Positions 2,139-4,481 of a stretch of DNA of 37,822 nt are shown piece by piece; within the stretch, counting starts at the first letter, position 1, and the number at the start of each line of letters is the position of its first letter. The DNA lies in assembly GCA_023248215.1 (NCBI GenBank), contig JAHFEW010000043.1, positions 1 to 37,822 of the forward strand, given 5' to 3'. The notes below the pieces were generated by a model that was not told where the DNA came from, made no database searches, and was given only the letters and a program-made list of their open reading frames with translations. A program made the translations under genes and the position numbers. This stretch comes from Nitrospira sp. GTDB lineage: Bacteria > Nitrospirota > Nitrospiria > Nitrospirales > Nitrospiraceae.

Positions 2139-2170
2139 TCCGGCGTGAGGTGGCGGCCGGCGCCGGACAA
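2136..2170. repeat. Perfect 10-bp inverted repeat at the edge of the IS remnant
   Basis: TTGTCCGGCG (2136-2145) is exactly mirrored by CGCCGGACAA (2161-2170), with 15 bases between. It overlaps the last T-rich repeat unit on the left and the first recognisable transposase codons on the right. It may mark a recombination junction or be a stem formed in the element. Confidence 0.6.
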
Positions 2171-2540
2171 GGTAGAGGCCAAGCGACCGCTGGCCGAGTT
2201 CGTCGCGCGCTTCGGCAGGTCCGCACCGGAAGCCGTCGCCTGCCTGGAAGACGGGTTCGAGGACGCGATGGCGGTGATGGCGCTGCCGGAGAAATACCGG
2301 CGACGGACAAGAACGACAACTAGGCGGGAGCGACTCAACGTGGAGATACGGCGCCTGGAGCGGGTCATCCGCATCTTCCCCAACGACGACTCGGCACGGC
2401 GCCTGATCGGCCGCGGCTGGCTGAATGGAACGATCTCTGGCGGGAACGCCGTTCCCTCGACATGGATGAATTCGCGGAATGGGCTGCTGCACGCGCCGCC
2501 GCCAATGACAACCACGTCGTGACCATTGCCGGGTCGGCGG
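2158..2540 (+). pseudogene. IS256-family transposase, 3' fragment, frameshifted
   Basis: The plus frame from about 2158 gives the C-terminal third of a Mutator/IS256-type transposase: LAEFVARFGRSAPEA, then DAMAVMALPEKYRRR, then the family block around ERLNVEIRRLERVIRIFP. At about 2405-2412 the match leaves this frame and resumes in the next (LAEWNDLWRERRSLDMDEF, then EWAAARAAANDN), so an indel broke the gene. The N-terminal two-thirds, including the first catalytic acids, are absent. In the conserved RTTN-type motif just before ERLN the Asn appears as Thr. Intact members are about 400 aa. The fragment abuts the 3' end of the radical SAM gene and is clearly inactive. It signals past insertion and rearrangement here. 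Confidence 0.8.
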
Positions 2541-2576: not shown

Positions 2577-4049
2577 TCAACAAGAATGAGGGGCTTGATC
2601 CGGCTTGCCCACAGCAGCCAGTTTTGAAATGAGTCCGATGAGCAAGTTATCCTTGAGCAATTCTCGTGTTATATGACACCGTTCCGTATACCCCGCAGCT
2701 GCCGGATCGCCACTCGAGGATACCGAAGCACTCTTGGCATAGCAGTCTCCTGCACAGTTATACTTCGCGATGCACCCCTGGCACTTCGGCATTTCGTGGA
2801 CATTGAGTCTCCCTAGCCGATCAATCGCCTCCTGATCCACGATGAATTCCCCAGCCTCCTGATTCCACTCGCCATACTGAAACAACTTGGCTCTCGGATC
2901 CGAAGGTTGGAGGACTTCGTTGCACGATGTCACAATTCCACGTGAGGTGACCAAGAAGGTGCTCGCATTACTGGCTCCACAAAAGGTCTCCCGGTGTTTC
3001 GTGGCGGCACCGGAGTAATACAGCTCGATCCCAAATCCTGCCGCCACTCTCCTTGCCTCACGGAAGTGATCCACGAACGTCTGCGCATCGATACGGTCAA
3101 TCTGCCCCTGAAGGTTCGTGACCCCTGTCACATCGAAGACCGGCTCAAAGTGGATACTTTTGCACTGCAAGTTCTCCCCGACGAACAGCACAAACTCGGC
3201 CAGCGTTGAACTGCCTGCTGCGGTTACCGTCGATCTGATATCGTACGTCTTCCCACGCTCCTCCAGCCCTTTCATGGTGGCGATAATGCGATCGAAGGAC
3301 CCACCCCCATTCGGCAGCACCCGATTCTCATTGTGCACGTCCCGCACACCGTCCAACGAGAAGGTCAGATGGGTGCAGTTCTCTGCAATATAATCCAGCC
3401 TTGTTGGGGAGAACACACCATTGGTGCTTAAGGATACGGTGGGCGTCAAACTATGCAGGCTGCACTGCTCCTTAAAGTATTCGATGATCTTCTGAAACAC
3501 GCTCCAACTTGCCGTGGCTTCGCCTTCTCCCAAGAAACTGATGGACGGATTCACCTGTTGAACTGTGGCATTCTTCACAATCAAATCGATTGCCGCTTTC
3601 GCCACCGTCCAGGGTATATCCAAGTCTTCCAACCTTCCCCCTTCGGCATAACAATACTTGCATCGCAAGGTACATTTCTGAGTATTTGAAAAGGTCGCGC
3701 TGGTTGGTGCCCATCGGGTACTGGGATTGGGGAACGTCTCTTGCCGTCCCTCGGTAATCTGGAACACGCCCTGGCTGGCTAGGTGATCGACCAGAGATTG
3801 TTCGTTGGGTAACAATGCCTCCTTACGGAAGTATTTCCTGACCGTAGACGCACCAAATTCGTTCAGAATCATGCTGACATTCGCACGGGGACTGTAAAAC
3901 AAGTACCCGTCTAGAAACGAGACAAGGAAAGTATCTCCTGCTCCTTCGATCCGCTCTTCAACGAAGTTCTCCGAAGTATGAATGGCACTGCGGCTTCGTT
4001 TTTGTGGCATGAGTAAGGTGTTTGGCATAGGAGATCCCTTCTCAGGCAT
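2577..4049 (-). CDS. Radical SAM/SPASM peptide maturase
   Basis: The 490-aa product is a radical SAM enzyme. The cluster-binding CxxxCxxC is C126, C130, C133 (KCTLRCKYCYAEGG), a GEGEAT segment at 174-179 fits the SAM-binding glycine motif, and SLDG lies at 231-234. The C-terminal part has SPASM-type auxiliary-cluster cysteines: C357, C376, C423, C426, C432, C436 and C458. Residues about 30-100 may be a PqqD-like recognition domain (YLFYSPRANVSMILNEFG); this is inferred. Enzymes of this architecture crosslink ribosomal peptides. The upstream Cys-repeat gene ends in a TAATG overlap with this start, suggesting translational coupling. The internal ATG at 4028 has a better ribosome binding site (AGAAGGGA, 6-base spacing) and could be the true start, giving 483 aa. 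GC is visibly lower than in the housekeeping genes. The substrate is inferred from context only. Confidence 0.9.
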   Translation of the reverse strand: MPEKGSPMPNTLLMPQKRSRSAIHTSENFVEERIEGAGDTFLVSFLDGYLFYSPRANVSMILNEFGASTVRKYFRKEALLPNEQSLVDHLASQGVFQITEGRQETFPNPSTRWAPTSATFSNTQKCTLRCKYCYAEGGRLEDLDIPWTVAKAAIDLIVKNATVQQVNPSISFLGEGEATASWSVFQKIIEYFKEQCSLHSLTPTVSLSTNGVFSPTRLDYIAENCTHLTFSLDGVRDVHNENRVLPNGGGSFDRIIATMKGLEERGKTYDIRSTVTAAGSSTLAEFVLFVGENLQCKSIHFEPVFDVTGVTNLQGQIDRIDAQTFVDHFREARRVAAGFGIELYYSGAATKHRETFCGASNASTFLVTSRGIVTSCNEVLQPSDPRAKLFQYGEWNQEAGEFIVDQEAIDRLGRLNVHEMPKCQGCIAKYNCAGDCYAKSASVSSSGDPAAAGYTERCHITRELLKDNLLIGLISKLAAVGKPDQAPHSC

Positions 4050-4381
4050 TAGGGTTGATTGGTGTCCGCGGAGCGAGACGGGGGCCTGGCCGCATTCATT
4101 TTCGTACGTATTTCGTCCACAATAGCGAGAAAATCATCGATGCTCTTCATCCTGTTGACGTCCAATCCTTGCACAACCTCTCGAAAAATTGGATTGGACA
4201 ACAGGTCGAGTATATTGGTTCCATCCTTTAGGTCACACACACACTTCAATTCACATGAGCACTTTCCATCACAGACACACTTCAATTCACATGAACAGTC
4301 CGGGTTCTCATGGAATCGGAGTACGTTGGCAAGAGCAATAAGACCGACGGGATCAATAGTACGAACCGGTTTATCAGGCAT
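4049..4381 (-). CDS. Cys-repeat protein, candidate RiPP precursor (110 aa)
   Basis: The ATG at 4381 follows a strong AGGAGG with six-base spacing and a clear promoter. Residues 1-28 form a leader-like segment (IDPVGLIALANVLRF). Residues 29-52 are two copies of a 12-residue unit, CSCELKCVCDGK and CSCELKCVCDLK, which hold all eight cysteines (29, 31, 35, 37, 41, 43, 47, 49). Residues 53-110 form a helical tail (NILDLLSNPIF, then SIDDFLAIVDEIRTKM) that ends in a polar stretch. The gene overlaps the radical SAM maturase by one base. The simplest reading is a precursor whose cysteines are modified by that enzyme. The repeat lies in the middle rather than at the C-terminus, which is unusual: the tail could carry the recognition site or be removed. 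An alternative is a small metal-binding protein. There is no signal peptide and no double-Gly site. I know of no named family. Confidence 0.8.
   Translation of the reverse strand: MPDKPVRTIDPVGLIALANVLRFHENPDCSCELKCVCDGKCSCELKCVCDLKDGTNILDLLSNPIFREVVQGLDVNRMKSIDDFLAIVDEIRTKMNAARPPSRSADTNQP
4226..4297 (-). repeat. 36-bp in-frame tandem duplication encoding the Cys repeat
   Basis: Two 36-base units (4262-4297 and 4226-4261) encode residues 29-40 and 41-52 of the precursor-like protein. The 20-base core ACACACTTCAATTCACATGA (plus strand) is identical at 4239-4258 and 4275-4294. Near-identity at the DNA level points to recent duplication, so copy number may vary between strains. Confidence 0.85.
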
Positions 4382-4453
4382 AAATACCTCCTATGGAAAT
4401 TTGAAGGTCGCCCTGTCTCGCTCATTGTCCATGTGGTGATTTTTCCGATGCGT

Positions 4454-4481
4454 AGTGTAAGAAACTGGTCATTAATGTCAA
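4454..4481 (-). promoter_or_regulatory. Sigma70-type promoter for the Cys-repeat/maturase operon
   Basis: On the minus strand a perfect TTGACA (4481-4476) is separated by 16 bases from TACACT (4459-4454). Expected initiation near 4447 gives a leader of about 65 bases before the ATG at 4381. No operator is obvious. Confidence 0.65.

Follow-up and report, generated by a model that had tools for sequence, protein, structure and literature searches.

A probable two-gene RiPP-type cassette of the Nitrospirales pairing a radical SAM/SPASM enzyme with a protein of repeated C-x-C-acid/amide units

We propose that two adjoining genes on the minus strand of a 37,822-nucleotide stretch of Nitrospira DNA, here called the window and part of a genome of 4.69 Mb, probably make up a ranthipeptide-like, RiPP-type cassette of the Nitrospirales, in which an enzyme with a putative RRE links a cysteine to the acid or amide residue of each unit of a small repeat protein. 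The parts of this proposal differ in strength. Judged from sequence, it is highly probable that the small protein (the precursor) is the substrate of the adjoining radical SAM/SPASM enzyme (the maturase), and the case for non-alpha thioether chemistry of the maturase is evenly poised; our suggestions on the register of the rings and the cellular role of the product are weak ones.

The precursor gene (4049-4381, minus strand) encodes 110 amino acids, including eight cysteines that all fall within residues 29-49. This agrees with a preliminary description of the DNA, which had reported a 110-residue gene coupled to a radical SAM/SPASM gene and had seen no cysteine outside the repeats. The cysteine-bearing core (4226-4297) is encoded by two 36-nucleotide repeats, 4226-4261 and 4262-4297, which are 86% identical. 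The two 12-residue units described earlier are indeed there; however, when eight distinct precursors are aligned, the true repeat proves to be a hexamer, C-x-C-[E/D/Q/N]-x-K, and each 12-mer thus consists of two hexamers (CSCELK and CVCDGK, then CSCELK and CVCDLK), which gives the window precursor four units. Position 4 is E, D, Q or N in all 28 units of the eight precursors (E 17, D 4, Q 4, N 3), and position 6 is Lys in 22 of them. When only distinct units are counted, 21 of 21 have D, E, N or Q at position 4, compared with 21% of such residues outside the core (p ~5e-15, for units that are not fully independent).

The core is bordered on each side by a conserved flank. The N-terminal flank (residues 1-28; 4298-4381, minus strand) carries the conserved sequence MPDKPVRxIDPxGxxALAxVL, is modelled with a helix at residues 11-23 and is a candidate leader. 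The C-terminal flank (residues 53-110; 4052-4225, minus strand) carries SNPxFREVVxGLDxxRxKSIxDF and is modelled with helices at 57-61, 64-71 and 81-98, its last part being variable. A model of the precursor by itself, of low confidence (pLDDT 65.5), has a helix, a pair of strands over the core and then three helices, and its comparison with PDB structures gave nothing better than E 0.2. Searches of Pfam, NCBIfam and the PDB returned no match for the precursor. Both genes are under purifying selection, with dN/dS in the five pairs compared of 0.06-0.39 for the precursor and 0.09-0.18 for the maturase and, since homologues also occur in 10 genomes, neither is a chance open reading frame. Upstream of the precursor lies a promoter-like site, TTGACA-16-TACACT (4481-4454, minus strand), found by a consensus scan that is not evidence of function; it is the best of three such sites, but they are no more numerous than in shuffled sequence.

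The maturase gene probably spans 2577-4028 (minus strand; 483 amino acids), although a longer open reading frame of 490 amino acids begins at 4049. The homologues start at the residue that corresponds to Met8 of the longer frame, where the LLMP context is conserved, and in the window GAAGGGA stands shortly upstream of the ATG at 4028. This start would lie about 20 nucleotides past the precursor stop, a spacing that is still operon-like. The translational overlap (TAATG) reported previously is not conserved, the ATG being out of frame with the maturase at two homologous loci (L027 and L059), and it is probably incidental.

The enzyme has the radical SAM cluster motif CTLRCKYC (3651-3674, minus strand; PF04055 above cut-off) and a seven-cysteine SPASM region from C357 to C458 (2676-2981, minus strand) with the pattern C-x13-G-x4-C ... 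C-x2-C-x5-C-x3-C ... C; the CxxxCxxC cysteines and all seven of the SPASM region are invariant in the alignment. At the N-terminus, a putative RRE-like domain covers approximately residues 41-92 of the long frame (3774-3929, minus strand) and has no Pfam match. A model of the L027 precursor and maturase, fused by reading through the stop codon, is confident for the core of the enzyme (mean pLDDT over the entire fusion 70.4) and places three strands and two helices ahead of it. Of the solved structures, CteB, a SCIFF maturase, comes closest (Z 29.1 over 388 residues) and aligns from its residue 1; the sulfatase maturase anSME is also a close fold match and aligns only from the core onwards. The modelled elements ahead of the core and the alignment with CteB from its first residue would fit the layout of an RRE-bearing maturase, with a PqqD-like domain followed by a radical SAM/SPASM enzyme. 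Among NCBIfam profiles, the nearest are those of the thioether-forming PapB and SCIFF maturases: the enzyme scores 115.5 bits with PapB (NF047865; cut-off 340) and 111.5 bits with SCIFF (TIGR03974; cut-off 425), and because both scores are under the curated cut-offs it belongs to neither family, nor does it reach another curated one. The C-termini of the window maturase (2580-2600) and its homologues are short tails with a conserved Cys, often within HxC (PHSC, HHC, HHHEC, QHAC).

Among 236 genomes of the order, 10 were matched by the precursor profile; the maturase profile picked out the same 10 and, in addition, one distant enzyme in G397. In every neighbourhood read, the precursor comes first and adjoins the maturase. 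The naive probability of two identical sets of ten genomes is ~8e-18, but the counts are not phylogenetically independent and, given shared ancestry, the true figure is larger. Unit number and spacing differ between the precursor homologues, and two genomes have tandem precursors (L028 and G322), with two copies ahead of one maturase. Thus the enzyme and substrate pairing of the preliminary description is supported, including the variable number of units beside one maturase clade that it had named as support, and neither of the outcomes that it held against the pairing was seen: every precursor homologue found was accompanied by this maturase, and no profile of a subunit-maturing family was reached by the enzyme. 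More generally, a conserved recognition part and a variable core encoded with a probable modifying enzyme, which is what is looked for in a RiPP pair, are all present here. Across the lineages only these two genes are common to the flanks of eleven loci and the window, among the rows listed, where no further shared gene, and specifically no protease or exporter, was seen; a wider operon with such genes was therefore discarded. Genes of these two kinds often accompany RiPP pairs but are not a requirement.

In the proposed mechanism, the maturase would bind the precursor via its N-terminal RRE-like domain, and its radical SAM cluster with the SPASM auxiliary clusters would place a single thioether in each C-x-C-[E/D/Q/N]-x-K unit. 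The link would run from a Cys to the acid or amide at position 4, at its beta or gamma carbon, and leave one Cys per unit free. The predicted mass change is -2 Da per unit, and the four-unit product of the window would be about 8 Da lighter with four thiols kept. A non-alpha thioether from Cys to position 4 is the most economical chemistry because D, E, N or Q is invariant after each CxC and the enzyme is nearest to PapB and SCIFF. Known acceptors of Cys thioethers include Asp and Glu with QhpD and Asn with NxxcA, and freyrasin has Cys-Asp links (PMC8326336); PapB can link Cys to either Asp or Glu and accepts Cys-Xn-Asp spacings for n = 0 to 6 (PMC9413430). Gln is not documented as an acceptor in the literature examined. 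Against this reading stand the Cys-to-acid spacing, which is x2 or x0 here and CX3D for PapB, and the conserved Lys at position 6, for which it gives no reason. The product may remain a small intracellular protein, since no protease or exporter is conserved beside the pair and the partners of distant maturases, considered below, are whole proteins.

It is less probable, although a serious contender, that the maturase acts on the precursor with another outcome, such as alpha-carbon thioethers as in sactipeptides, a bond with the conserved Lys, or some other radical modification of Cys or Lys. The presence of Lys6 in 22 of 28 units would be consistent with this, as would the sactipeptide and cyclophane maturases, which share the fold and also score; however, they score more weakly than PapB and SCIFF, which give the highest profile scores, and the residues that are invariant at position 4 are those that enzymes forming non-alpha thioethers use as acceptors.

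Alternatively, the precursor could bind metal, in the manner of a metallothionein or otherwise, and need no radical modification, with the maturase serving another substrate or cofactor. CxC motifs are common metal ligands, and a metal-binding protein would agree with the lack of a neighbouring protease or exporter gene among the rows listed. We nevertheless regard this as very unlikely: plain metal sites would need no acid or amide after every CxC, the two genes strictly co-occur in 10 genomes at unrelated places, and distant maturases adjoin the CxC motif on other scaffolds. Least probable of all is that the maturase, in the style of QhpD or anSME, matures an enzyme subunit encoded elsewhere, with the small protein in an accessory part, carrying or activating it. 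This would account for the similarity to the QhpD (TIGR03906) and sulfatase-maturase profiles and for the close fold match to anSME, but the scores fall well short of the cut-offs (77.9 bits against 453 and 60.1 bits against 349, respectively), the repeat number of the small protein varies as it does in multi-unit substrates, and no other common gene was seen beside the pair among the rows listed for the eleven loci and the window.

Returning to the maturase as a probable modifier of CxC units, five distant relatives of the enzyme (~28-33% identity) adjoin unrelated proteins that carry a CxC[D/E/N/Q] motif, and several of these partners are Tat-signal WD40 proteins; position 4 is D, E, N or Q in 22 of the 26 units of the partners. 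In G397 and G310 the partners belong to the WD40 proteins, begin with a twin-arginine-type N-terminus and have tails of the kind CTCN...CTCD...CTCN...CTCQ, and a plasmid of Ca. Chlorohelix encodes two proteins with CxC[D/E/N/Q] tails, one of them a WD40 protein. These three maturases, beside Tat-signal WD40 proteins with CTC[D/N/Q] tails, resemble that of the window at the same level of identity and in having a partner with the motif, whereas the partners are unlike the precursor, being large, probably exported beta-propeller or other proteins with homology limited to the motif. On a plasmid of Methylocystis iwaonis (L073:5137-5535, NZ_CP143316.1), an unannotated open reading frame directly 3' of the radical SAM gene has seven CxC units, six of which are followed by Asp or Glu (CECD, CSCE, CHCE, CVCE, CDCD, CHCD). 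A Caballeronia plasmid is a weaker case, with CSCN and two exceptions. The pairing does not appear to be general background, because beside seven more distant maturases of the phylum no open reading frame with two or more CxC[D/E/N/Q] units was found within several kilobases.

Other plasmid matches, distant ones from Salmonella and Edwardsiella, were set aside as having a different layout with an ABC transporter and an S8 peptidase; the Salmonella stretch has no CxC-repeat open reading frame, and the Edwardsiella layout was judged from annotation. In G310 (L058:14843-18999) and on the Ca. Chlorohelix plasmid (L071:1-5780), several different radical SAM genes cluster near CxC-tailed proteins of the twin-arginine type.

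A wider interpretation, which we put forward tentatively and would not yet favour, is that one radical SAM/SPASM clade acts on a C-x-C-[D/E/N/Q] motif that is portable among unrelated scaffolds, including the small Nitrospirales proteins, the Cys-acid repeat protein of Methylocystis and the tails of Tat-signal WD40 proteins, and that the product is a cross-link or metal site kept on the finished protein. If so, the modification would be a general builder of protein cross-links or metal sites and not a step towards a secreted peptide, and it would be predicted that enzymes of this class recognise a short motif transferable between proteins. The recurrence of the motif across scaffolds is the most interesting feature of the system.

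Comparison with known systems shows where the cassette stands apart. PapA/PapB, which makes the ranthipeptide freyrasin, likewise combines an enzyme of the radical SAM/SPASM type with a core built from several units of Cys and Asp or Glu, and its profile is the best-scoring in NCBIfam, yet the maturase score is well short of the family cut-off, the unit is CxC[E/D/Q/N]xK in place of CX3D (CX3[D/E] for the family), and the core lies centrally, followed by a conserved C-terminal flank. The SCIFF pair CteA/CteB shares the radical SAM and SPASM layout, which here follows a putative RRE, and provides the closest solved structure, but its profile cut-off is likewise far above the score obtained; SCIFF peptides are ~45 residues long, with six Cys and a Cys-Thr link, and come from Clostridia (PMC8326336). 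QhpD, the quinohemoprotein amine dehydrogenase maturase, makes Cys-Asp and Cys-Glu links in a small substrate that is kept as a protein (PMC8326336), but the profile score is low, and the repeat protein that is the probable substrate in the present pair is unrelated.

Neither the precursor nor its CxC motif was found in the literature searched, and searches for Nitrospira, or for WD40 or Tat proteins, with radical SAM peptide maturation gave nothing relevant. At the level of sequence, these data point to an undescribed, portable kind of protein modification. The precursor adds, from Nitrospira-type bacteria, a family with no Pfam, NCBIfam or PDB match, and its natural variants in unit number could be used for substrate-scope work.

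Most of the named relatives in which the pair occurs belong to Nitrospira and the Nitrospirales, and of the listed genomes of the window's own genus only two have it. The pair is also present in a Ca. Scalindua (anammox) MAG (L025:5643-7518, JALDRB010000002.1), on a contig of 318 kb in which the pair has a GC content of 46-47% and the flanks 37-38%. This difference suggests horizontal transfer between phyla, and the GC of the flanks makes mis-binning of the contig unlikely. In the window, the pair adjoins a remnant of an IS256/Mutator-family transposase (2163-2411, plus strand; PF00872, E 4.6e-14, with DNA similarity to IS256 transposases) and, taken with the GC contrast in Ca. Scalindua, this makes the precursor and maturase look like a mobile two-gene cassette. 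A viral or plasmid origin was rejected, as no close relative was found in IMG/VR, phage records or plasmids, as was a role in anti-phage defence, for which there were only weak viperin-fold matches via the radical SAM core. In a low-coverage MAG (L023:5646-5700, WHTE01000038.1) the precursor frame is broken near its start, possibly by a sequencing error, and in G442 (L026:597-725, G442:C262) a second, apparently decayed copy of the precursor lies between the intact precursor and the maturase.
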